A stretch of 47,455 nt of DNA from a virus, in the IMG/VR virus record IMGVR_UViG_3300009165_000001, positions 1 to 47,455 of that record; one strand, given 5' to 3'. Under the pieces are notes generated by a model. The model was given only the letters and a program-made list of their open reading frames with translations, was not told the origin of the DNA and made no database searches. Position 1 is the stretch's first letter, and every line of letters starts with the position of its first letter. This document shows, piece by piece, positions 7,312-33,858 of the stretch. The position numbers were made by a program, and so were the translations under genes.

Positions 7312-8295
7312 CTAGGTGCTGGCCGTGCCGACCTGGAGGCCGGTCTCGTTCACGGCGTTCACGCCGTAGTTGAGGTACAGCGACAGGTCGCCGGCCGCGT
7401 TCACGCCGATGTGGGCAACCCCGCCATCGGTGGTGACGCGAAGCCGGTTCTCCGCAACGATGCCCGTGTTGGCCAGAGCCGCCGTGAAGTTGATACACGA
7501 CGTGCTGGAGGCCTTCCACGAGTAGATGAAGTTGCGGCGAATCGACACGTTGGTGCTGGCGGTCGTGAGCGAGCGGATTGCTCCCTGGGCCGTGCCCACC
7601 GTCACCTTGATGTCGTTGTCCTCGATCTTGCAGTAGTCGGCGCCCGTGAGCACGATGCAGTCCGTGATCTCGGCCGCGACCGCTGCCGTCTCGACCCTGT
7701 TCCCGCAGAACGAGCAGTTGTCGCCTGTGATGGTCAGGAACGTGGTGCAGATCTGGTCAGCGTCGATGCCAACCTCGAACTGGTTCCCGATGAGCGCACA
7801 GCCCGCCGCCGACATCGCGAACGGAGCGGCCACCGTGAGGGCGGTCGTGCCGGCCGGGCCGGCGCAGAGGAACCGGCACCCGCTGATGGTGACGTCCGCG
7901 CTGTCGAGCAGCAGCGTTGCCGCCGCCACCGTGAACGTGAACGTCGGGATGGCCGACCCCGACGGGATGCCAACGATGTGAACGCCGGCCACGAACGTCC
8001 AGGCGTCCGCGGAGGCGATGTTCTCGGTGTGCTTCGGGAGCACAACGATGGTGTCGCCACGGCTCGCCTTGCAGTCGGCGAGGGCGAGGGCGACCGACGG
8101 GTACAACGGCCGGTTGCTGGGAATCAGCCTGCTGTACTGGTCGTCGTAGTTGGAGACGGTCGTACCGTCGCCACGCACGAAGTAGACCTTGCCGGTCGGG
8201 GGCAGCGCGTAGATGCCGCCCAGGTCCAGGGTCTTCTCCAGCGTGTACGGAGCCGGGATACTCCACTCGGAAGGCGGAAGCGCTCTGGTGAACAT
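7312..8295 (-). CDS. Right-handed beta-helix virion protein
   Basis: A 327-aa protein, starting MFTRALPPSE. From about residue 100 onward it shows short repeated strands with aligned Asn, Cys and hydrophobic positions (such as DVTISGCRF, NCSFCGN, YCKIEDNDI), typical of a right-handed parallel beta-helix. The N-terminal 90 residues look like a compact anchoring domain. It lies directly after the major capsid gene and a small coiled-coil gene, so it is probably a capsid decoration or tail-associated protein. A polysaccharide-degrading spike is less likely, because no catalytic acidic cluster is evident. Confidence 0.75.
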   Translation of the reverse strand: MFTRALPPSEWSIPAPYTLEKTLDLGGIYALPPTGKVYFVRGDGTTVSNYDDQYSRLIPSNRPLYPSVALALADCKASRGDTIVVLPKHTENIASADAWTFVAGVHIVGIPSGSAIPTFTFTVAAATLLLDSADVTISGCRFLCAGPAGTTALTVAAPFAMSAAGCALIGNQFEVGIDADQICTTFLTITGDNCSFCGNRVETAAVAAEITDCIVLTGADYCKIEDNDIKVTVGTAQGAIRSLTTASTNVSIRRNFIYSWKASSTSCINFTAALANTGIVAENRLRVTTDGGVAHIGVNAAGDLSLYLNYGVNAVNETGLQVGTAST

Positions 8296-12403: not shown

Positions 12404-14698
12404 TCAGTGTACCGCGGCCGGCGCCGCTTGTGGGGGAACTCCTGCTGGGACGTGCGTCCGCGGAGGCGCTGCCCCGGGGGTGCCCGTCGGCTGCCCCGTG
12501 GGGATGGTCGGGTGCGGGGCTGGGCCGCCGGGTCCTGCTGGCGGGCCGCCCGGTGCTCCACCGGCCGCCGCGGCCATGGCCTGGGCCTGCTGCTGGGCCA
12601 TCATCCGCTGCGCAATCTCGGCCTCGCCCGGGATCATCGCGGCAATCTCATGAGCCCCGCGCACCACCAGGCAGTCGCGCATGATGGCAGCGTACACGGG
12701 GCCGAGCTGCGGACCGAGGATGATCTGGGAGAGCTGCGGCGGAATCCCCTTGGTCATCATGCCCAGGATGTCGTCCTTCTCGGCCACCTTGGCGGCACGG
12801 CTGGTGAAAGTCAGGTCGGCGGTGAAGGTGATGTCCAGGTCGTCCTTGTACATGTCCCGCCCGACCGTGATGGCCTCCGGCTTGTTGGTCACCGGGTGCG
12901 GAACCGTGAGGTTCTGCGCGTCCGGGAGGAACTGGTACTGGAGCAAGGCCTCGTTCTTGGCAATCTGGGTCATCGCCAGCATGAAGTTGCCCGCCAGCAC
13001 CGTCAGTTGCTTGACGGCCTGCTCGACGCGGGTGGCCTGGCCTCGGAAGGTCTCGTCGCCCTCCCGCTCCCCGGAGAGCACGTCGGGGGCGCTCGACACG
13101 GCGTCCGCGGCGTCCGACTGCATCGCCACGCCGGTCATGAGCGACGGGTTTGGGCTCGGGATGGGCAGCTGGAAGATCCCCTTCCCGGTGCTCTCGATGG
13201 GTACGCCGTCCACGACGTTCAGCTTCCCTGGTTCCAGGCTGGTGGTGCCCGGGGGGAGCTTGCACTGGCTGTTGATGAAGGTGATCCCGCCGTTGGCCAT
13301 CGTGCCCTGGTCAATGATCTGGTTGAGCAGGATGTTCGCCGCCATGTTGTGCGGCTCGATGAGCTGGCCCACGCCGAGCCCATAGGAGCCGTCGGGGTTC
13401 TCGATGCATACCGCGTGCGAGAACGGCTCAATGACCTTCTGGCGGCACGGCCGCGGCTCGGCGCCGTCCTCCTGCATCCATTGGGGCTTGATGGGGGGCG
13501 CAGGGCGCTGCTGCTGGACCTGCTGGGCAATCATCTGTGCTTCCATCGGATCCACGTCGGGCTGCTGGATGCGCAGCAGGACCTGCTGCTCGCGCTCGAG
13601 CGCCGAGGTAAACCCCTGCATGGCCTGGTGATACTGCTCGTGCTCCATCATCTCACGGTCGAAGCGCAGTCGGTCGTCCGGGTCGTCGTAGAGCCGCGAG
13701 TACATGCCAAGGATGAGCTTCTTGTTCTTGGCCAGGAGCACCCGCATGGGCACTTCCTCGTCCTGACCGGGCAAGAGCACCCATCCGTGGTACTCCAGGC
13801 ACGTGTAGGGGGCGTCTCGGGTCACCGTCGTGCGGTCCACACCCTCATGGCGGTTGGCCTCGTCGAGGACGGGGTGGTCGATGTCGTCTTCATAGGTGCC
13901 CTTGTCGGCGAGCACCTTCTCAAGCTGCTCCTTCGCGATGAAGCCGCTCTTGGCCAGCTTCTTGAGGTCGCGCTTCCGGTAGTGGCGAATAACCACCTTC
14001 CAGGGCACGTCGCTCATGTCCGGCTCGACCGTCTTGGTCACGTACGGGTACACGAACTCCTCGGGGCTCAGGTGCTCGTGGACGTTCACCTCGCGCGTGG
14101 TGTCGCGCCAGGAGTAGAACACGCAGTCCCCATCGCGGAAGAACTCATGGAGGCCGCGCTGGATGTGCCGCGGGAACGCCGGGCACTTGCGGCGGAGCTG
14201 GCTGTTCATGTGCTTGGTGACGATTTCGGCCCGCTCCTCGGTCAGTCGGCTGTTTGCCTGGGCCGTGAGGATGGGGCGCCCCGAGCCGAAGATTTCCGCG
14301 AACGTGCGCGAGGTGAGGCGCAGGCAGCGCGACATCAGCAGCGGTACGTGCATGTTGGCGCAGTTCTTCCAGGGCTCGCTCTTCTCTTCGAGAGCCCCGA
14401 GCCAGAGCTTCATGCGAATGCGCCGCGGCTCCATCCACCCCTCGCGGGTCTCCATGCCTTCGCGGAAGTCCTCCAGGATGCCATCGGGGAGCGTCTCTTC
14501 GAGAAACTTCTTGAGCTTCTCGCCGCCCGGGGCCGCGGCCTGCGTGAGCAGGAACGGGAGCACGTTGACCACGTTGTCGGGGAGCTGGAGGCCAGGCTGG
14601 GCCGGGTTCTCGGTGGCGGCCGGCGTGGGCTGCTCGCCTTCGAGCTCGGGCTCCGGCGTCTTGGGCTCGTTTTCGAGGTCGTCGTCTTGGTCCTTCAT
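12404..14698 (-). CDS. Portal protein
   Basis: A 764-aa protein, near the 725 residues of the P22 portal and much longer than typical siphovirus portals. An acidic, Pro-rich N-terminal 45 residues is followed by a helical wing region and a core with several Trp/Tyr-rich strands. Residues 420-520 contain a stem-like region (LGVGQLIEPHNMAANILLNQIIDQ-type helix, shortened here). The C-terminal 60 residues are Ala/Gln/Pro-rich. It lies one small gene after terminase. The product forms the dodecameric DNA channel at the capsid vertex and the docking site for terminase and tail adaptor. Confidence 0.85.
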   Translation of the reverse strand: MKDQDDDLENEPKTPEPELEGEQPTPAATENPAQPGLQLPDNVVNVLPFLLTQAAAPGGEKLKKFLEETLPDGILEDFREGMETREGWMEPRRIRMKLWLGALEEKSEPWKNCANMHVPLLMSRCLRLTSRTFAEIFGSGRPILTAQANSRLTEERAEIVTKHMNSQLRRKCPAFPRHIQRGLHEFFRDGDCVFYSWRDTTREVNVHEHLSPEEFVYPYVTKTVEPDMSDVPWKVVIRHYRKRDLKKLAKSGFIAKEQLEKVLADKGTYEDDIDHPVLDEANRHEGVDRTTVTRDAPYTCLEYHGWVLLPGQDEEVPMRVLLAKNKKLILGMYSRLYDDPDDRLRFDREMMEHEQYHQAMQGFTSALEREQQVLLRIQQPDVDPMEAQMIAQQVQQQRPAPPIKPQWMQEDGAEPRPCRQKVIEPFSHAVCIENPDGSYGLGVGQLIEPHNMAANILLNQIIDQGTMANGGITFINSQCKLPPGTTSLEPGKLNVVDGVPIESTGKGIFQLPIPSPNPSLMTGVAMQSDAADAVSSAPDVLSGEREGDETFRGQATRVEQAVKQLTVLAGNFMLAMTQIAKNEALLQYQFLPDAQNLTVPHPVTNKPEAITVGRDMYKDDLDITFTADLTFTSRAAKVAEKDDILGMMTKGIPPQLSQIILGPQLGPVYAAIMRDCLVVRGAHEIAAMIPGEAEIAQRMMAQQQAQAMAAAAGGAPGGPPAGPGGPAPHPTIPTGQPTGTPGAAPPRTHVPAGVPPQAAPAAVH

Positions 14699-14958
14699 GT
14701 GTCGACCCTTCCATTTTCAACGTCTTCTGCGTTCTGGAGAAGGCGATAGGCGACCATCCTTGCTTGCTCTGGGGTCAAGCTGAGGCGGTCGCCGCTTCTC
14801 TCTGGATATTGCAGAGAAACGCAATTTCCTTCCCTGTCAGCTTTCACCTCGATCTCCTCGCCTCCCCCCTTCGGCTTGTCGCGGCCGAAGCCCAGATCTG
14901 TCGATGTGAACAGGATGACTCCTTCCGGTCCGACTACGAGCGTCCCGTTTGCTCTCAT
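14695..14958 (-). CDS. Small protein between terminase and portal (87 aa)
   Basis: I choose the ATG at 14958 because it overlaps the terminase stop as ATGA; a start at 14973 would overlap more. The protein begins MRANGTLVVGPEGVILFTS, a beta hairpin, and ends with a helix (LSLTPEQARMVAYRLLQNAED). Its stop overlaps the portal ATG. The function is unknown; conserved small genes are often found at this spot and can assist packaging. Confidence 0.75.
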   Translation of the reverse strand: MRANGTLVVGPEGVILFTSTDLGFGRDKPKGGGEEIEVKADREGNCVSLQYPERSGDRLSLTPEQARMVAYRLLQNAEDVENGRVDT

Positions 14959-16469
14959 GTTCCGTACCCCCATCGGCGCCCGCTTCGTACCAGGCGCGCT
15001 CGGTCAAGGTCGTTCAAGTCGCATTCGTCGGTGTGCTTCTTCGGCTGCTTGCCGGCGGCCCTGGTCCTGTACATGCAGGCGTACATGAGGTTATCGTACC
15101 AGTGGTCTTCGCCGCCGTCCTCGGGAACTTCTGGGTCGTTCTTGCTGGTGGGGAGCAGCGGAATGGTCCGGCGCAGCTCCGTGCAGGTCTCGAACACCTG
15201 AAGGCCCGGCTTGGCGTCGCCGGACTTCGGGATGTCCCGCATCCGTCTGACGACCTCGGCCGTGCCGGCGAAGCGGTTCTTGGTGCACGGGACCCAGTGC
15301 ACACCCTCGGCGGCCATCTTGTCCACAATACGCCATCCGCCGTCGATGTTGCCCCAGATCTGGTTGTCGGCCGGGCCCGTGATCTTGGAGCAGTTCCGCT
15401 TCTCGTCCCACAGGCCCATCTCCTTCTCGATGTTGCGAATGGAGATGGCCACGAGCTGGGAGTCCTTCCGCTTGCTCGGGTGGATCTTGTAGTTGAAGGT
15501 AACCTCCTTGAAGAAAACCAGGTCTCCGTCCTCGTTCACAGCCACCCAGTGCACCGGGCATGGGCTCTTGTAGCCCCAGTCCATCACGCGGAACTTCGGC
15601 CAGTGGTCCGGGATTGGGAACGGCTTCACCACGTGGACGCTCGGCTCCCACTCGTGCTCGAAGAACGCCCCCTCGATGACGTCCCAGTTGCAGAAAAGGC
15701 GCGCCTGCATGACCGCCTTCGAGTTGAGCCCGCGGAGGCGGTCTTCGTAGTCCCGAGAGAACCCTTTGTCCGGGTTGTCGGACAGATAGGCCGGGATGTA
15801 GATACGCGTCGTCTCGCCCACGGTTCCGTCGCTGCGAGTGTGTTGGGCCCGTAGTAGCCTGCGGCCGTCCCGGTGCGGATCCACGAACAGCCGCTTGACC
15901 CATGCCCCGTGCGCGGGCGCGTCCGGGTTGGTCGCCAGCCCGAAGCGCAACTTCCTCGCGAGGACGGGGTCTCCGGTACGTAGGCGCCCGTACAGGCCGT
16001 CGAACTGCGACAGGTGCAGGTTGACCGCCTCGTCCATGTAGATGGCGGTGTACTCGTTCGTGTCGTACTTGCGCCAGGAATCCTCGTGCTCGAGGTGGCC
16101 GAACTGGTAGCGGTACCCGCACGAGAACACGATAGTGTTGAGGCTGGCGACCCACCGCGAGCCCGGGTCCACCTTCGAGGCGATGTCCTTCACCTTGTCG
16201 ATGGTCTGGTCGAGCTGGGTCATGTTCTCGCGGACATGCAGCGCCCAGCCGGCCGACTTGAAGTCCTCACCGCGGGCGCGAGCTTGCAGGTAGCGCGTGT
16301 GCTCGCCTGGCTCCCCCCAGTGGTCGTAAAGCTGCGTGATGATTGGGTCCCAGCGCAGCCACCAGGTTTTGCCGCATCCTGCTGTGCCGCCGTAGAGAAT
16401 CTGGACCGCTCGACAGTCGTGCGCCTCCTGCTGTACGTCGGAAGGGGCGTATATGGCCTGCTCTGTCAC
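14955..16469 (-). CDS. terL: Terminase large subunit (TerL)
   Basis: The 504-aa product has a Walker A motif GGTAGCGKT at residues 27-35, Walker B AIYMDEA near 140 and a C-terminal nuclease domain with the first acidic residue in VMDWGYKSP and another in the GNIDGGW context. It pumps DNA into the prohead through the portal and cuts concatemers. The length matches P22-type TerL (about 500 aa), fitting headful packaging. A GTG at 16469 is the first sensible start; the open frame extends upstream, but that part overlaps the opposing lipoprotein gene and has unnatural composition. The start has a weak ribosome site. Confidence 0.9.
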   Translation of the reverse strand: MTEQAIYAPSDVQQEAHDCRAVQILYGGTAGCGKTWWLRWDPIITQLYDHWGEPGEHTRYLQARARGEDFKSAGWALHVRENMTQLDQTIDKVKDIASKVDPGSRWVASLNTIVFSCGYRYQFGHLEHEDSWRKYDTNEYTAIYMDEAVNLHLSQFDGLYGRLRTGDPVLARKLRFGLATNPDAPAHGAWVKRLFVDPHRDGRRLLRAQHTRSDGTVGETTRIYIPAYLSDNPDKGFSRDYEDRLRGLNSKAVMQARLFCNWDVIEGAFFEHEWEPSVHVVKPFPIPDHWPKFRVMDWGYKSPCPVHWVAVNEDGDLVFFKEVTFNYKIHPSKRKDSQLVAISIRNIEKEMGLWDEKRNCSKITGPADNQIWGNIDGGWRIVDKMAAEGVHWVPCTKNRFAGTAEVVRRMRDIPKSGDAKPGLQVFETCTELRRTIPLLPTSKNDPEVPEDGGEDHWYDNLMYACMYRTRAAGKQPKKHTDECDLNDLDRARLVRSGRRWGYGT

Positions 16470-16489
16470 TGCCGTGCTACCGTTGAGCC

Positions 16490-16834
16490 ATGAAAACGAC
16501 GATTCTCGCCCTGCTGGTTGCCGCGCTCGCGGCCTGCGACATGGAAGGCGCCGAGGGCGAGCGCACTTGGAACGACCGCTCGACGGTGCCCATCGTCGCC
16601 GGCCCGTCCAGCGCACAACCAAGCGCTGAGGCCGCGGACTGGACGAAGCTTGCGCCGATAACTCCGCCACCGCCCCCTCCAGCAACGTGCGCCGACGGTT
16701 ACGAGCGCCTGGCCTACGAGCCGCCGACCGTGTTGTTCTGCCGTCCGCTGCCTGGCACCGCCGAGAACGAAGACCCGTGCCTTGGCCTGCGCGTCGTTGT
16801 ACGCGGCGATGACGGTCTGGTCGCCTGCGAGTAG
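16490..16834 (+). CDS. Small lipoprotein, inverted in the late operon (114 aa)
   Basis: The frame starts MKTTILALLVAALAAC, a short lipoprotein signal with lipobox LAAC, so the mature protein would begin with Cys16 and be anchored to a membrane. A Pro run (PPPPPP) and four further Cys residues (in TCADGY, LFCRP, DPCLG, VACE) follow, suggesting two disulphides outside the cytoplasm. It is the only plus-strand gene between 1 and 22 kb and lies head-to-head with terminase and tail-to-tail with the glycosyltransferase. That isolation suggests a moron, for example for superinfection exclusion or host-surface change; this is inference. An o-spanin is possible from the Pro-rich stretch but less likely with so many Cys. 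Confidence 0.75.
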   Translation: MKTTILALLVAALAACDMEGAEGERTWNDRSTVPIVAGPSSAQPSAEAADWTKLAPITPPPPPPATCADGYERLAYEPPTVLFCRPLPGTAENEDPCLGLRVVVRGDDGLVACE

Positions 16835-16839
16835 GCGAG

Positions 16840-17421
16840 TCACCCGAGCACCTCGCTGTCCATGTTGGCGAAATGGTGGACGGCGTACCATTTTGGATCC
16901 GGTTTGCGCCCAAGGCGGCGCCAGAATGGGCGCTGTAGGACGTCATCGCGACCGAGCAGCCTAACGTCGTCTCGGCTGTCTAGCGCCTCGCTGATGAGCT
17001 TGGAACCCATGGATAGGTGAGTTGCCGGATCCGCTTCTTTGAGCAGATCAAGACATCTGCCGATCCATGGATGATGTGGGGCCGCTGCCAAGAAAGCGTT
17101 GCAGGCGCGGAGCCGCGCCCCTCTCGCATAGAATGGCGACGCCACCGCCGTCGCGCCGGAAAGCAGCGGCTCGATGTTACGCAGGAACTCGGTATCCCAG
17201 TCAGCGTATACGCCGCCGTACTCCCACAGGATATGAAGGCGCGCCCAATTGGACTGCTGCCGAACGTGACAGCACGATGCTGGCGGATTCGTCGCAAGCC
17301 CGTCTGAGCGACGCTCGATCCACCCTGGGTGCAACTCCAGGAATGACGCCGACCACTGCTCATATGGCGCCGGCACCAAGCTTGTCTGGACCCAAACCCG
17401 ATGGATGATTCGCGGGATCAT
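16840..17421 (-). CDS. GT32-type (Och1/capsular) glycosyltransferase
   Basis: The 193-aa protein begins MIPRIIHRVWVQ and contains YGGVYADWDTEFLRNIEPL near residues 75-95, with the DWD (DXD-type) metal/nucleotide-sugar motif of the glycosyltransferase family that includes Och1 and bacterial capsule enzymes (Gly_transf_sug). The usual N-terminal P-x-I-I-H-x-x-W motif is also present, and the length suits the catalytic domain alone. The ATG at 17421 forms an ATGA overlap with the tail-fibre-like gene, so the two are translationally coupled. Likely substrates are host surface glycans or a virion protein; coupling favours the latter, but this is inference. Confidence 0.82.
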   Translation of the reverse strand: MIPRIIHRVWVQTSLVPAPYEQWSASFLELHPGWIERRSDGLATNPPASCCHVRQQSNWARLHILWEYGGVYADWDTEFLRNIEPLLSGATAVASPFYARGARLRACNAFLAAAPHHPWIGRCLDLLKEADPATHLSMGSKLISEALDSRDDVRLLGRDDVLQRPFWRRLGRKPDPKWYAVHHFANMDSEVLG

Positions 17422-24461: not shown

Positions 24462-24735
24462 TTGACAACTCAACCCTCTGGCGGCAGCGCGAAGCGCTCA
24501 TGCGAGGAAGCTCCCAAGCGGAGAAGGCCACCCGGGCCGCTGACTCGAGCCCAGTAAGCACGCGACGAAACCAGAGGCAATACCAGGACCAAGCCCAATG
24601 ACCGGCGAACCGCGTGAGTCGTCCGGGGCAGGCTGCAACGGTCCGTAGGCGGGAACTCGCAAGCCCGCTGCCCAAGGGGCCTAGCAAGCTGTCCTTGGGC
24701 CTTCGCTGAAGCCCGCAAGCAGATTGCGGGTTTCA
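24462..24735 (+). ncRNA. Structured RNA of about 270 nt, HEARO/omega-RNA-like
   Basis: A dense set of pairings is visible: CCTCTGG (24475-24481) with CCAGAGG (24571-24577); AGCGC-GAA-GCGCT (24486-24498); CACGCG (24559-24564) with CGCGTG (24611-24616), extended by GACTC (24542) with GAGTC (24616); GGGCA (24626) with TGCCC (24669) enclosing GCGGG (24649) with CCCGC (24664); CCAAGG (24672) with CCTTGG (24693); and an 11-bp hairpin at 24708-24734. The first and third cross, so a pseudoknot is implied. The strings GGAAGCTCC and ACCAGAGGCAATACCAGGAC recall my memory of the HEARO (IscB omega-RNA) consensus. No IscB gene follows. The fold is well supported; the family name is tentative, and both ends are approximate. 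Confidence 0.6.
24708..24734 (+). terminator. 11-bp hairpin at the 3' end of the structured RNA
   Basis: GAAGCCCGCAA, loop GCAGA, TTGCGGGTTTC: ten Watson-Crick pairs and one G-U. It ends 15 bases before the next ATG. Only three uridines lie in the 3' arm and none follow, so it may be a processing or stability stem and not a strong terminator. Confidence 0.5.
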
Positions 24736-24749
24736 TGGAGGGAATCCAC

Positions 24750-24989
24750 ATGACGATCTATCCTCGCTTCGTCGGCAAGGTTTCGCTGTACCGCGTTCGC
24801 CTAAACTCCCAGGGCTACAACAGCGACGGTCGCTACTTCGGCATCGGTGACCCGGTCTATCGTGCGGACGATGAGGACTGCACCTTCGAGCACGTGCGCG
24901 CCAAGTCCCGAGCCGAGGCGGCACAGAAGCTAGGTATTTCTCAGGAGCAGCTTCGCAGGCCCACAACCAACGAAAGGCCCGTCCCATGA
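24750..24989 (+). CDS. Conserved small phage protein, GRYFGIGDPVY type (79 aa)
   Basis: The ATG at 24750 has a GGAGGG ribosome site eight bases upstream; an in-frame ATG at 24735 lies in the RNA hairpin. The protein has a compact beta domain with a YNSDGRYFGIGDPVY segment and a helical end (KSRAEAAQKLGIS). Similar small proteins with G-R-Y-[FW]-G-x-G-x-P-[VL]-[YF] occur in many phages; their function is not known to me. It ends in an ATGA overlap. Confidence 0.75.
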   Translation: MTIYPRFVGKVSLYRVRLNSQGYNSDGRYFGIGDPVYRADDEDCTFEHVRAKSRAEAAQKLGISQEQLRRPTTNERPVP

Positions 24990-25276: not shown

Positions 25277-25563
25277 CGACGCGCGGCTTATGTGGTGTGC
25301 AAGCCGACTGAACACCACGCAAAAAAGCGGGACGGCTCTGCGGACTGGGCGCGCGACCAAAATACATGCCTGGGCTGGCAGTCGGGTTTCGACTGTGCTC
25401 CGTGAGGGAACCATGTGAACCAGATACCCAAGGCGAAACCCGGCCACCTCCCGGCCGGGTCTGCGGACAAGCCCAACCCGCACTGATGAGCGACGGAGAG
25501 CGGAGGCGCTACCAAGGCACAAAGCGTGTCCTGATTCGACCGTAGCAAACCAAGGAGACGACG
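25277..25563 (+). other. Structured non-coding leader
   Basis: There is no convincing gene. It contains a hairpin GCAGTCG-GGTTT-CGACTGT (25378-25396) followed by the hammerhead-like core, then 70 bases leading to an AAGGAGACG ribosome site for the 109-aa gene. Confidence 0.55.
25434..25491 (+). ncRNA. Candidate type II (permuted) hammerhead ribozyme
   Basis: The core reads C-GAAA (25434-25438), stem III CCCGGCC/GGCCGGG (25439-25445 with 25453-25459), U-C (25460-25461), stem I TGCGG/CCGCA (25462-25466 with 25478-25482), then CTGATGA (25483-25489) and G-C. The A of GAAA pairs with the U before the cleavage site, as required, and cleavage would follow C25461. All conserved core bases are in register. 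The weak point is open stem II: only G25490-C25434 and C25491-G25433 pair cleanly next to the core. It lies in the leader of the early arm. Confidence 0.65.
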
Positions 25564-26382: not shown

Positions 26383-26564
26383 GCCGCGTTGTCCCGTTCC
26401 TGTACCGCTGTGGCCACACGGAGTGGATGGACAAGGGGAGCGAGCCGGAAAAGCGCGACCACTGCACCGACTGTGAGCGAGAGTACCAGGAGAACCGCCC
26501 GCGCCAAACACGGCTCTTCGATAACGAAAGGAAACCACCATGCAATCCGCGACTGTACGATTGA
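26379..26564 (+). CDS. Small zinc-finger-like protein (61 aa)
   Basis: MSRVVPFLYRCGHTEWMDKG has C-x-H, later H-C-T-D-C, a C/H set that could hold one zinc ion. It is basic and Gln/Arg-rich toward the end, as in small nucleic-acid-binding proteins. Its last 25 bases overlap the start of the alanine-repeat gene. Confidence 0.65.
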   Translation: MSRVVPFLYRCGHTEWMDKGSEPEKRDHCTDCEREYQENRPRQTRLFDNERKPPCNPRLYD

Positions 26565-27184
26565 CCCGCGCTCTGCTCCGCGAACACGATGCCTGCTACA
26601 CCGACGCTCAGCTAGACGCGCTCGGCCTGCCTGACGGAGTTGACCTGCTGACGGTGCTACGTCGTGACGACATCCCCGCCGTTGACCGCATCTGGGTGTC
26701 AACACTGCCCGGCGCATGTGTGCCAACCGCGTTGTGGCGTTGGCAGGCGAAGCTCGTAGCGCGCGCGCTAGCCCGCGTGGAGAACACGGATCCGCGTAGC
26801 CTCGCTGTCGTCGCGTTGCTGGACCGACTCGACTCCGGTGAGGACGTTCCGCAGGCGGAACGCGACGCAGCCATGGGCGCAGCCTGGGACGCAACCTGGG
26901 ACGCCAGGGAAGCAGCCATGGGCGCAGCCTGGGACGCCAGGGAAGCAGCCATGGGCGCAGCCTGGGACGCAGCCAGGGCCGCAGCCATGGGCGCAGCCAG
27001 GGCCGCAGCCTGGGACGCAGCCAGGGACGCAGCCTGGGACGCATCCAGGGCCGCAGCCTGGGACGCAGCCATGGGCGCATCCAGGGCCGCAGCCTGGGAC
27101 GCAGTCTGGGCCGCCGCCAGGGCCGCCGAAGAAAAGCAGCAGATCGAGGATCTGATTGCGGTACTCACGGAGCAACCGCGATGA
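26540..27184 (+). CDS. Alanine-rich AAWDA-repeat protein (214 aa)
   Basis: Residues 1-105 form a helical N-terminal domain with Trp-rich DRIWVSTLPGA and LWRWQAKLVARALAR. Residues about 110-195 are built of five-residue units of the form A-A-[WMR]-[DGA]-A (AAWDA, AARAA, AAMGA), placing Trp, Met or Arg at every fifth position, like a narrow helical solenoid. A short coiled coil ends the protein. Such repeats are known in phage and bacterial proteins sometimes called Imm-5-like; their role is unclear. The start has AAAGGAAAC upstream. Confidence 0.8.
   Translation: MQSATVRLTRALLREHDACYTDAQLDALGLPDGVDLLTVLRRDDIPAVDRIWVSTLPGACVPTALWRWQAKLVARALARVENTDPRSLAVVALLDRLDSGEDVPQAERDAAMGAAWDATWDAREAAMGAAWDAREAAMGAAWDAARAAAMGAARAAAWDAARDAAWDASRAAAWDAAMGASRAAAWDAVWAAARAAEEKQQIEDLIAVLTEQPR
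26870..27130 (+). repeat. Coding repeat array, 15-nt units
   Basis: The DNA of the AAWDA region is made of imperfect 15-nt units around GCAGCCTGGGACGCA. A 33-nt block starting GGGACGCCAGGGAAG occurs twice in tandem from 26898 and 26931. The low complexity makes length change by slippage likely and could confuse assembly. Confidence 0.8.
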
Positions 27185-27462: not shown

Positions 27463-27908
27463 AGCTGGCCGACAGACTTATGGAGCTGAGGGCCGAAGCG
27501 ATGTGCTCACCAAGCCAGGGAATTTCGGCTCCGACCCTACTGCGCACAATCGACAAGCATAGGGTCACAAGCGAGTCCATCGACAGCCCGGAAGACACCG
27601 CCGTCGACTGCATCCAGATTCTCATGGCGTTGGCCAGGGAGTACGAGGAGCACATGGTGAAGCTCCACATGAGACAGGCCCCGCCGATCGTCATCACTCG
27701 AAAGGACCACGCCATGATGATAGGATGCCAACTCATGCCAGAGGGTGAGCTGCGAGACCTGGCCGAAGCTGCCGTGCTGCTCGGCCTCCGCCCCAACGAA
27801 GCGCCGACGGTACTCGGATTGACCTGCGCGCCGTTCAATGATGACGATGTGCGCGCACTCGAATCCATGATCGAAGAACACCAAGGAAAGGCCGCCCAAT
27901 GCCCCTGA
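27459..27908 (+). CDS. Protein of unknown function preceding Sak4-like gene (149 aa)
   Basis: The GTG at 27459 forms GTGA with the previous stop and has GGAGG eight bases upstream. The N-terminal helix (VKLADRLMELRAEAMC) is followed by a mostly helical, acidic body. It overlaps the Sak4-like start by 10 bases. Position suggests a replication or recombination accessory factor. No motif is recognised. Confidence 0.7.
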   Translation: MKLADRLMELRAEAMCSPSQGISAPTLLRTIDKHRVTSESIDSPEDTAVDCIQILMALAREYEEHMVKLHMRQAPPIVITRKDHAMMIGCQLMPEGELRDLAEAAVLLGLRPNEAPTVLGLTCAPFNDDDVRALESMIEEHQGKAAQCP

Positions 27909-29928: not shown

Positions 29929-30147
29929 GTGCTCGCCCAAGTCGTCATCGCCGTGGGACTGGCCGTCGGGCTGAGCGTCGGCTCGTTCATCTACGGCGTC
30001 CTTGTCGGGCGCCAGGAGCGCGACGGCGAGCTGGCGGACCTGCGACTGACCAACGCCGCGCTCGAGCGCCAGGTGGTGAAGTTGTCCAGGGTGGCCGAAA
30101 GGCTCGCCAAAGGGGAGACCGATGCAAAAGCTCGTCCTTGCAATTGA
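29929..30147 (+). CDS. Single-span membrane protein with coiled coil (72 aa)
   Basis: A GTG start at 29929. Residues 3-27 are a membrane helix (VVIAVGLAVGLSVGSFIYGVL). The remainder is a coiled coil (LADLRLTNAALERQVVKLSR). It overlaps the 5' nuclease start by 26 bases. The topology resembles i-spanins or small anchors, but the early-gene location argues for a membrane-tethered accessory protein. Confidence 0.65.
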   Translation: MLAQVVIAVGLAVGLSVGSFIYGVLVGRQERDGELADLRLTNAALERQVVKLSRVAERLAKGETDAKARPCN

Positions 30148-31087
30148 CGGGTCGAACTGGGCCCACCGGGCCTGGCACACGCCGGGCAACGGACCCAACC
30201 ATGCAGCCAGCGTCTTCTGCCAGATGTTGGCCAAGGCCGACCGCACCCTAGGACCGAGTCACCTCGTGGTGGCGTTCGACTACCCGGGACCGACCTGGCG
30301 CCACGAGCTGTTCTCGGCCTACAAGGCCGGGCGCGACGAAAAGGACCAGGAGCTGGTCAAGCAGCTCGCCCTCTCGTCTCAGGCAGCGCAGGCCTACGGG
30401 TGTCAGGTGTTCTCCGTCGAGGGCGTGGAAGCCGACGACGTGCTCGCGACGGTGGCCACCCGGGCGACCTGCGCTGGCGTGGAATGCATCATCGGCTCCG
30501 GCGACAAGGACATGATGCAGCTCTGCTCCGCTACCGTGAAGCAGTTAGACGCGGCGTACAACGTGGCCGGGCCTGAGCAGGTGGAGGCCAAATGGGGCGT
30601 GCCGCCCGAGAAGCTCGCCGATGTGCTTGCGCTCATGGGTGACAGCGTTGACGGTATCCCTGGCATCGACGGCATTGGGGCCGTCACAGCCGCGGAGCTC
30701 GTGGCCAAGTACGGGTCCGCCCTGGAAGCGGTGGCTCATGCCGACGAGGTTGGTGGGAAGCGCGGGGCCGCGCTGGCGGCGGGCGCCGAGATGGTGCGGC
30801 TTGGGCTCCAGCTCGTACGGCTCAAGACGGACGTGGACCTGGGCGCCAAGCTCACCGCCACCAGGCGTACGCCGGAGGCCTTCGAGGCCTTCCGGGCGAA
30901 GCTGGAACACGTGGACATCTCGCGCACGGTGACGTGCTACGGGGTGTGCGGCGGGAATCCGAAGTACCGCACCGTGCAGGGCTACTCCTGCTCTTGCTGC
31001 GGCGGCTCGGGGAAGGTCACGAGCTACAACGAGCGGGCTCTTCAGGCCAAGGAATGGGACGAGATCACACACAGGGGAAATCCGTGA
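30122..31087 (+). CDS. FEN-type 5'-3' exonuclease with zinc tail
   Basis: A 321-aa protein resembling the 5' nuclease domain of DNA polymerase I and T5/T7-type flap nucleases. Acidic sites are AIDGSN (residue 9), DDVLA near 104 and GDKDMM near 120; GDSVDGIPGIDGIG near 173-186 is the helix-three-turn DNA grip. After residue 265 an extra segment has CYGVCGG and CSCCGG, a probable zinc ribbon not usual in the family. It removes primers and flaps. The gene ends by overlapping the helicase GTG (GTGA). No polymerase domain follows. Confidence 0.85.
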   Translation: MQKLVLAIDGSNWAHRAWHTPGNGPNHAASVFCQMLAKADRTLGPSHLVVAFDYPGPTWRHELFSAYKAGRDEKDQELVKQLALSSQAAQAYGCQVFSVEGVEADDVLATVATRATCAGVECIIGSGDKDMMQLCSATVKQLDAAYNVAGPEQVEAKWGVPPEKLADVLALMGDSVDGIPGIDGIGAVTAAELVAKYGSALEAVAHADEVGGKRGAALAAGAEMVRLGLQLVRLKTDVDLGAKLTATRRTPEAFEAFRAKLEHVDISRTVTCYGVCGGNPKYRTVQGYSCSCCGGSGKVTSYNERALQAKEWDEITHRGNP

Positions 31088-33858
31088 GCCAGCTCGGCTT
31101 CGCCTTCGCGCCACCCACGGCGCCTACCCGCCTGGCCAGCGTACAGCCCATGCGCGGTTACCAGGAGGAGGCCGTGGCCGGCGCCCTGCGCAGCTTCGAG
31201 AAGTGGGACGACGCGCTATGGGTCATGGCCACTGGCACGGGCAAGTGCCTCGGGCGCGGAACCCCGGTATTGTTGGCAGACGGCAGAATCGTTCCCGTCG
31301 AACACGTCAGCGTGGGATGCAAGATCCAAGGACCCAATGGGCAAGTGCGCCAGGTTCTGTCAGTCACGTCCGGCGTCGGCAACCTATGGCGCGTCACCCC
31401 GGTCAAGGGTGAGCCTTGGGTCTGCAACGACGTCCATGTCCTTACCTTGGTCCACACCGAGACCGGCCGGGTGGTCGACATTCCGCTCAACGAGTACATC
31501 GGCAAGCCGAAGCATTGGAAGCATTGCCATAAGCTGTTCCGGTCCGATGTCCCGACGTCCCACGATGAGGACGAACCGCTCCCGGTCGACCCATACTTCC
31601 TAGGCCTATGGCTGGGCGACGGCTCGCTTCGCAACGGGACGATCTCTATCTGCAAGCCCGACAGAGAAGTGCTCGAGGCCTGCCAGACAGAGGCTGCCCG
31701 CTGGGGGCTTGAGGTTCGCACGCACGATATCGACAGGTGCCCACAGCATTTCCTTTGTCGCAAGGTCATGGGGCGCGGACACCGCAACCCGCTGTCCTGC
31801 GCGATCCTGGACATGGGCCTCCTCGCGTCCGATAGGTTCATCCCTATGCGCTACAAGCGCGCCAGCCCAGCGAAGCGCCTTGAGCTCCTGGCCGGACTAC
31901 TCGACTCCGATGGTAGCCTGTCCTGCAATGGGTTCGATTGGATCTCCGTGTACCCGCTACTGGCGGACGCCGTGGCGTACATCTCACGCAGCGTCGGCTT
32001 GGCGGCGTACGTGACCCAGTGCCAGAAGAGCTGCCAAGGCGGGTTCACGGGGACCTACTACCGGGTCTCGATTTCTGGAGACACGCACAAGATCCCGACG
32101 CGAATCGTAAGGAAGCAGGCCGCCCCGCGAAAGCAGAAGAAGGACGTTCTTCGCACGGGGTTCTCAGTGAGGCCGATCGGTGAAGGCGAGTTCTTCGGAT
32201 TCGAGCTGGACGGCGACGGTCGCTTTCTGCTCGGCGACTTCACTGTCACCCACAACACGCGATGCTTCACCGAGGTGGCCCACCTGTGGCCGCAGTGGGC
32301 GCGCACCCTCAAGGCCAAGAGCAACCGCGTGCTGGTACTAGCCGAGCGGGACGAGCTCATCGGCCAGGCCAAGCGCCGCATCGCCGCCCAGACGGGCCTG
32401 CCCGTGGGCCGCGAGCAGGCCGACAGCCGCAGCTCTGGCGAGCCCATCGTGGTGGCCAGCATCCAGACCCTGCTGCGCCCCCAGCGGCTCAACAGCTTCC
32501 GCCCGGACGAGTTCGGCCTGGTAATCTACGACGAAGTGCATCATGTTTGCGCACCGACCCGCAGAAAAATCGTGCGCTACTTCCAGGACGGAGGCTGCAA
32601 GTTCCTCGGGGTCACCGCCACCCCAGACCGCAAGGACGAGCGCGGCATGGCCAGCGTGTTCCGTTCGGAAAAGCCGGCGTTCTGCTACGAGATCGACGAG
32701 GCCATCGCGGATGGGTGGCTGGTCGAACCTCGCCCGAGGACGATTCGCGTCGAGTCCATCGACTTCTCGAAGGTGCGGAAGGTGAGGGGTGAGCTGTCGG
32801 AGGGCGAGATGGAGGCCATCATCTGCGCCGAGGAGGCGCTGCACGGCATCGCCAAGCCATGCGTTCTCGAACATCGCGGACGTGCCCTGGGTTTCTGTCC
32901 GGGCATCAACAGCTCGAAGCTGCTCGCGGACATCTGCGGGCGGTTCGCCGTCTCGTACGGGGTAGGCGACAACTCGTGGGCGCGGTGGATGGCCGGCCAA
33001 GGGGCGATGGAGCTCGACGAGCGCCGCCGGGTCATCGCTGGCCACCAGCGGGGCGACTTCACAGCGCTCTGGAACTGCCAAGTGGCCACCGAGGGCTACG
33101 ACGATCCTGGGCTGGGCACGCTGTTCATGGCCCGCCCAGTCATGAGCCGCATGCTGTTCGCCCAGATGGTCGGCCGTGGCACCCGCCCGGTGTTCCCCGA
33201 CGGGTTCGATAGCCTGCGCGCCACCGCGGAAGAGCGCCGCGCAGCCATCGCCAGCAGCACCAAGCCCTGGCTCCATGTGCTGGAGTTCACTGGCAATTTC
33301 GGCAAGCACGACCTGGCCTGCACCGTCGACATGATGGGGGAGAAGTACGACGAGGAGACCGTCGAGGCCGCGAAGAAGATCGTCGAGAAGGAAGGCGGCT
33401 CCCCGGGCGCCGCGCTCGAGCGCGCCCTGAAGGAAGCCGAGGCCGCGCGGCTGGCCGCCATGGCCGCCCGCGCCCGCGTGACTGCTGACGTTCGCTACCA
33501 CGTCGACCCCTTCGAGTTGATGCACATGAAGGGCAAGGACGACAGCTGGGCCAAGCGCTTCTCTGGCGACCCCGCGACGGACGCCCAGATCGGCTACCTG
33601 TCCAGCTTCGGCGTTCCCCGCGAGGACGCCCGCAAGATGACCAAGGCCCAGGCCAAGCTCATGCTCACCACGTGCATCAAGCGCAAGGAGTTCGGCAAGC
33701 CCTACTTCTCGCAGGTGGCAAAGCTCCGAGCCGTGGGCATCGACGGGTTCGACCTGTCACTGAAGCAGGCGCAGGATCTGTGCTGGGAAATCCAGCAGGC
33801 CCACGGGAAACGACCGGCCGAGGAGAAGATCGCGGCAATCGTGAACCGAGGAAAGTGA
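31084..33858 (+). CDS. Superfamily 2 DNA helicase interrupted by an intein
   Basis: The 924-aa precursor starts at GTG 31084, overlapping the FEN stop. The helicase sequence runs to Walker A ATGTGK (residues 49-54), is broken by a 337-aa intein, then resumes with Thr and continues: IYDEVHH (motif II, about 482-488), VTATPDRKD (motif III, about 510), and MVGRGTRP (motif VI, about 693-700). The spliced product is about 587 aa, similar to phage UvsW/Res-type helicases that remodel forks and recombination structures. The C-terminal 130 residues form an extra basic helical domain. It must splice to bind ATP. Confidence 0.9.
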   Translation: MSQLGFAFAPPTAPTRLASVQPMRGYQEEAVAGALRSFEKWDDALWVMATGTGKCLGRGTPVLLADGRIVPVEHVSVGCKIQGPNGQVRQVLSVTSGVGNLWRVTPVKGEPWVCNDVHVLTLVHTETGRVVDIPLNEYIGKPKHWKHCHKLFRSDVPTSHDEDEPLPVDPYFLGLWLGDGSLRNGTISICKPDREVLEACQTEAARWGLEVRTHDIDRCPQHFLCRKVMGRGHRNPLSCAILDMGLLASDRFIPMRYKRASPAKRLELLAGLLDSDGSLSCNGFDWISVYPLLADAVAYISRSVGLAAYVTQCQKSCQGGFTGTYYRVSISGDTHKIPTRIVRKQAAPRKQKKDVLRTGFSVRPIGEGEFFGFELDGDGRFLLGDFTVTHNTRCFTEVAHLWPQWARTLKAKSNRVLVLAERDELIGQAKRRIAAQTGLPVGREQADSRSSGEPIVVASIQTLLRPQRLNSFRPDEFGLVIYDEVHHVCAPTRRKIVRYFQDGGCKFLGVTATPDRKDERGMASVFRSEKPAFCYEIDEAIADGWLVEPRPRTIRVESIDFSKVRKVRGELSEGEMEAIICAEEALHGIAKPCVLEHRGRALGFCPGINSSKLLADICGRFAVSYGVGDNSWARWMAGQGAMELDERRRVIAGHQRGDFTALWNCQVATEGYDDPGLGTLFMARPVMSRMLFAQMVGRGTRPVFPDGFDSLRATAEERRAAIASSTKPWLHVLEFTGNFGKHDLACTVDMMGEKYDEETVEAAKKIVEKEGGSPGAALERALKEAEAARLAAMAARARVTADVRYHVDPFELMHMKGKDDSWAKRFSGDPATDAQIGYLSSFGVPREDARKMTKAQAKLMLTTCIKRKEFGKPYFSQVAKLRAVGIDGFDLSLKQAQDLCWEIQQAHGKRPAEEKIAAIVNRGK
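31246..32256 (+). mobile_element. LAGLIDADG intein in the helicase P-loop
   Basis: The in-frame 337-codon insert begins with Cys (CLGRGTPVLLADGR, block A) after GTGK and ends in FLLGDFTVTHN (blocks F and G) before an extein Thr. The final His-Asn and the +1 Thr are proper splicing residues. Two LAGLIDADG motifs, FLGLWLGDGS (about 31597) and LLAGLLDSDGS (about 31885), both keep the acidic residue, so the homing endonuclease is probably active. Block B is present as CNDVHVLTL, with a variant where Thr is usual. Confidence 0.92.

Follow-up and report, generated by a model that had tools for sequence, protein, structure and literature searches.

The gap between the second and third early genes of a tailed phage probably contains a genuine type II hammerhead ribozyme, which would process the early mRNA, possibly slowly. 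The motif itself is, judging from its sequence, almost certainly real, and its activity as a ribozyme is favored as well, with appreciably less confidence. A genuine hammerhead is the best reading; in its favor are the covariance-model match, the complete core, the rarity of such an arrangement by chance and the location in a non-coding gap. The covariance-model match, the sequence parse and the rarity of the descriptor uphold the original prediction of a type II hammerhead predicted to cut after C25461.

The window, i.e. the whole stretch of DNA that was analyzed, is a single virus record of 47,455 bases. Most of its late genes are encoded on the minus strand (among them terminase, 14955-16946, and a portal-like protein, within 12404-14716), and the plus strand carries the early/replication genes, at about 24.7 to 38 kb. 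The plus-strand genes include those for a Sak4-like annealing protein (at 27899), an exonuclease (at 30122) and a helicase (within 30934-33858). Early genes 2 and 3, which encode proteins of 96 and 109 aa, respectively, are separated by 287 nt (25277-25563), and the motif lies within this gap. As assessed by codon usage trained on long ORFs, these two ORFs score as coding and all six frames of the gap as non-coding, and a 59-aa plus-strand ORF and a 230-aa minus-strand ORF spanning the motif were rejected as non-coding by the same score. Two plus-strand genes lie just 5' of the motif (84 aa at 24735 and 96 aa at 24986). The motif is therefore intercistronic and not at the head of a transcript, which corrects its earlier placement in an early leader. 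Elsewhere on the plus strand, a 214-aa ORF (26540-27184; PHROG 8332, unknown function) has a repetitive Ala/Trp/Asp-rich stretch with AWDAAWDA-like units, and the helicase gene (30934-33858) appears to hold an intein, with Hom_end-associated Hint and LAGLIDADG domains ahead of and within the helicase parts.

Parsing of the sequence recovers every invariant hammerhead core base, in type II order, at 25433-25491 on the plus strand. Indeed, CUGAUGA and GAA, the A15.1-U16.1 pair and an H at position 17 are all present, and the permutation is that of type II, with loops closing stems I and III and stem II open. The predicted GAAA, 8-bp stem III, UC, 5-bp stem I and CTGATGA were all found, and in register. 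Stem III is perfect over its 8 bp, the A25438-U25460 pair counted in, and its 5' strand has a pairing probability of 0.87-1.0 in the minimal stretch. The corresponding prediction for the 5' strand of stem I ranges from 0 to 0.96 and depends strongly on the flanks.

Features of the hammerhead motif and its surroundings in the 47,455-base window
Feature	Position	Strand	Basis or remark
Upstream early gene, 96 aa	24986..25276	+	coding score +0.61 per codon
Hairpin CAGUCG-GGUUU-CGACUG, 6 bp, loop GGUUU	25379..25395	+	contains anti-core segment
Anti-core segment	25381..25391	+	11 bp, one G-U, complementary to 25434-25444
Stem II 3' strand (GC)	25433..25434	+	pairs with 25490-25491; 2 bp
Stem II pairs	G25433-C25491, C25434-G25490	+	sequence parse
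Core G12 A13 A14 (= G25435 A25436 A25437)	25435..25437	+	RF02276 alignment and parse
Stem III 5' strand, first base A15.1	25438..25445	+	sequence parse
Loop III (ACCTCCC)	25446..25452	+	sequence parse
Stem III 3' strand, last base U16.1	25453..25460	+	sequence parse
C17, predicted cleavage 25461/25462	25461..25461	+	deduced from hammerhead core
Stem I 5' strand	25462..25466	+	parse; 5 bp with 25478-25482
Loop I (ACAAGCCCAAC)	25467..25477	+	no contact of at least 3 bp with first 12 nt of tail
Stem I 3' strand	25478..25482	+	sequence parse
Core C3 U4 G5 A6 U7 G8 A9 (CTGATGA)	25483..25489	+	RF02276 alignment and parse
Stem II 5' strand (GC)	25490..25491	+	sequence parse
3' tail, site of pseudoknot partner in other type II hammerheads	25492..25503	+	
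Downstream early gene, 109 aa	25564..25893	+	coding score +0.25 per codon

The Rfam model Hammerhead_II (RF02276) matches 25431-25499 on the plus strand over its full length, with a score of 36.1 bits. The E value is 7.6e-6 for 4227 families and 401 bases, 9e-4 for all families and the whole window, and 2.1e-7 for the one family and the record. The search with type II hammerhead covariance models that had been proposed thus gives a match, at a score 0.9 bit under the gathering score of 37 bits, and a default Rfam scan is therefore blank at the motif. Neither a descriptor search nor the Rfam scan revealed a second copy of the motif in the window. An RF00223 match at 7909-7968 is far under its own cut-off and was treated as chance.

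Motifs of this kind are already known, since a pattern scan of viral contigs (GCGAAAC...GTC...CTGATGAG) found the same motif in at least 120 stretches. Among the matches listed, 122 distinct type II motifs were parsed from the fetched viral loci. RF02276 matches 44 of the 50 motif-bearing viral records listed at E<=1e-3; 28 of these exceed the cut-off and 16 score solely under it. Scores listed for viral records run from 23 to 74 bits, and no match at E<=1e-3 was obtained in 14 control genomes. Because many viral motif records also fall under the cut-off, 36.1 bits is an ordinary score for a genuine member. Six viral_contigs loci with well-formed motifs have no RF02276 match at E<=1e-3 (L004, L050, L067, L073, L078 and L085, i.e. 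records G039, G065, G072, G075, G077 and G080), which indicates that viral type II hammerheads are more diverse than the Rfam model captures. A 57-kb viral record (L061, record G070) has 24 type II hammerhead matches in ~8 kb, at about 9.9-17.5 kb, and most of the hammerheads parsed from it end directly ahead of a potential start codon, as though almost every small gene came with a ribozyme. The window motif illustrates the placement of phage type II hammerheads shortly before ribosome-binding sites. Using a start finder that is a simple heuristic, a start preceded by a Shine-Dalgarno sequence was found within 40 nt of stem II for 79% of the viral motifs listed, compared with 18% of random positions. 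In the window, 72 nt separate stem II from the next start, against a median of 23 nt for the other viral motifs listed.

A weak stem II had been considered the main doubt about the motif, and this concern proved unfounded. Stem II has 2 bp in 45 of the 122 parsed viral motifs listed, it commonly consists of only two base pairs in published type II hammerheads, and active hammerheads with a 1-2-bp stem II have been reported (Perreault et al. 2011, PMC3088659). The true weak point of the motif lies elsewhere, in the absence of a pseudoknot joining loop I to the 3' tail. In the window motif, loop I can form at most 2 bp with the first 12 nt of the tail, whereas at least 3 bp are possible in all 45 of the other viral motifs listed with a 2-bp stem II, and at least 4 bp in 44 of them. 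Across 70 listed motifs with a 22-nt stem I hairpin, loop I/tail pairs in a fixed register are kept through two-sided changes (GTGGTG with AGCC, GTCGTG with AGCG, GTGTCG with AGAC). This covariation is a stronger argument for the pseudoknot than individual 4-bp loop/tail pairings, which are not significant alone and are favored by the composition of loop and tail. Two other contacts were considered and dropped: a 6-bp substitute pseudoknot of loop I with an upstream UGGGCU at 25371-25376 (p 0.20), and a pairing of loop III with GGAGG at 25502-25506 (p 0.30). RNAfold, which models neither the hammerhead core nor tertiary contacts, disfavors stems I and II of the window motif in most sequence contexts; it also predicts stem II weakly in most other viral motifs listed.

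Several other explanations of the motif have to be weighed. A chance resemblance in G+C-rich non-coding sequence, with hairpins that serve otherwise, e.g. in termination, could be argued from the narrowly missed Rfam gathering cut-off. It is nevertheless very improbable in view of the single-family E value given above and of the frequency of such motifs in simulated sequence (348 Mb of order-1 Markov sequence with the composition of the window, both strands). A loose descriptor (stem II of at least 2 bp, stem III of at least 5 bp and stem I of at least 4 bp) found 3 matches in this background, equivalent to 4e-4 per window. A strict one, requiring as in the motif at least 13 bp in stems III and I together, found 0, in agreement with the earlier judgment that a chance origin is unlikely. 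Nor is there an intrinsic terminator (a G+C-rich hairpin followed by a T run) at the motif, where CTGCGG comes after stem III. A decayed hammerhead, i.e. the descendant of an active type II ribozyme whose pseudoknot partner is gone and whose cleavage has become too slow to be of consequence, is unlikely too, but a good deal less so. It would explain an intact core combined with a loop I/tail pairing down to 2 bp, the unusually distant next start, and the weak predicted stem I, which ranks 13 of the 122 motifs listed. However, all core bases and the perfect stem III have been retained, which neutral decay would not favor. Furthermore, the loop I/tail pseudoknot is common but not universal in type II hammerheads; it is also absent in three phage motifs with other loops (L005, L098 and L217), and absence alone is thus not decay. 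Trimming the pseudoknot lowered the rate about 20- to over 100-fold in the construct of Perreault et al. (PMC3088659). Because pseudoknot-less relatives exist, we take its absence in the window to lower the expected rate and not to affect membership in the class.

An altogether different possibility is that cleavage is regulated. The anti-core segment listed in the table could pair with GAAA and the 5' strand of stem III and compete with the active fold, so that cleavage would vary with the speed of transcription, with a protein or ligand, or with where the transcript starts. An 11-bp match over the core is rare: it was equaled in 0 of 3000 shuffles (p<3e-4) and in a fraction of 0.0025 of random window pieces, and a comparable segment was found in 0 of the 121 other viral motifs listed. 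Its significance is modest once the comparisons made are allowed for, because the segment was spotted in an unrelated alignment and tested afterwards, among several comparisons. The predicted populations are split between two folds in a near-bistable manner, and the balance changes with the position of the transcript's 5' end. For most long transcripts that start at 25277 or 25320, the predicted probability of the anti-core fold is 0.27-0.39; it rises to as much as 0.96 when transcription reaches only 25450. Against regulation, stem III is usually favored in the predictions, a start at 25360 almost abolishes the anti-core fold in longer transcripts, making it dependent on the transcript start, and the searches described below gave no close relatives in which the segment could show conservation or covariation. 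We therefore regard a regulated hammerhead as doubtful, well behind decay in plausibility. In its fullest form, which is a long shot, the motif would be a natural conformational switch built on a phage hammerhead: in place of the usual pseudoknot, the upstream anti-core strand would tie up the catalytic GAAA and stem III in an inactive helix, from which a signal or the progress of transcription would free them.

For the preferred reading, a hammerhead that processes the early mRNA, the following mechanism can be proposed. Once transcribed, GAAA, stem III, stem I and CUGAUGA would assemble on the 2-bp stem II; attack by the 2'-OH of C25461 on the next phosphate would cut the RNA after C25461, by established hammerhead chemistry. 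The upstream mRNA would thereby acquire a 3' end formed by the strong stem III hairpin and bearing a 2',3'-cyclic phosphate, and the downstream mRNA would start at a 5'-OH on U25462, the first base of stem I. The predicted cut would leave a leader of 102 nt (25462-25563) before the 109-aa gene, compared with the 100 nt given originally, and this leader is longer than usual. Both new ends would be hairpins because the type II permutation leaves stem III upstream and stem I downstream. A 5'-OH end is expected to resist the bacterial RNA decay that is triggered by a 5' monophosphate. Hairpin-capped ends could uncouple the stability of the two halves of the mRNA, i.e. genes 1-2 and gene 3 onward. 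As the loop I/tail pseudoknot is absent, cleavage is predicted to be slow at cell-like Mg2+, unless another contact substitutes for it.

Searches for relatives, which may not cover records close to that of the window, found no close relatives by DNA (small matches were weak, with E 0.4 and 21% of the query), and searching phages, viral contigs and genomes with the 109-aa protein gave none either. The best relatives are those of Sak4 (43-54% identical) and terminase (45-52% identical). No convincing hammerhead was found in these Sak4/terminase relatives, and this absence in distant relatives says only that the element is not universal. Pattern scans for the same loop I and for the tail returned coincidences that are not hammerheads, except L005 and L217. 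The motif extends the type II hammerheads to the early operon of a lineage of phages that has no close relatives in the collections searched. It also offers a clean test of two questions: can a type II hammerhead still work when stem II has 2 bp and the classical pseudoknot is lacking, and can a natural hammerhead be gated by an anti-core strand upstream of it?

The motif can be compared with three known systems. It shares with the type II hammerheads of RF02276 and Perreault et al. (PMC3088659) the permuted order stem II-GAAA-stem III-UC-stem I-CUGAUGA-stem II, the closed stems I and III with an open 2-bp stem II, the G10.1-C11.1 and A15.1-U16.1 pairs, and the location in a phage. Its stem I hairpin of 21 nt is like those of other viral type II motifs (mostly 21-23 nt). 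It differs in its missing or 2-bp pseudoknot, in its tail (GACGG in place of AGCC), and in its score just under the RF02276 cut-off. The three viral motifs L005, L098 and L217 resemble it in having a type II core and no loop I/tail pseudoknot. They have a 6-bp stem I, a 7-nt loop I of the form AA(A/C)(A/U)CGG and a 3-bp CGC/GCG stem II, the latter two being absent from the window motif; L005 and L217 score 39.1 and 34.8 bits, respectively, with RF02276. Their common loop I and stem II suggest another tertiary contact. HHphage of the haloviruses HF1/HF2 (PMC3088659) is likewise a hammerhead 5' of an early phage gene. Located 13 nt from a helicase start in a haloarchaeal virus, which it precedes, HHphage has a variant core, whereas the window motif has a consensus core and precedes an orphan gene, with its next start at the greater distance past stem II given above. 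In vitro, 14 of 18 consensus hammerheads were active (Perreault 2011, PMC3088659). Among experimental precedents, the closest are the active hammerheads that occur in tandem in prophage operons and the HF1/HF2 transcript 5' end that maps within 3 nt of the HHphage cleavage site, upstream of the early helicase gene (PMC3088659).
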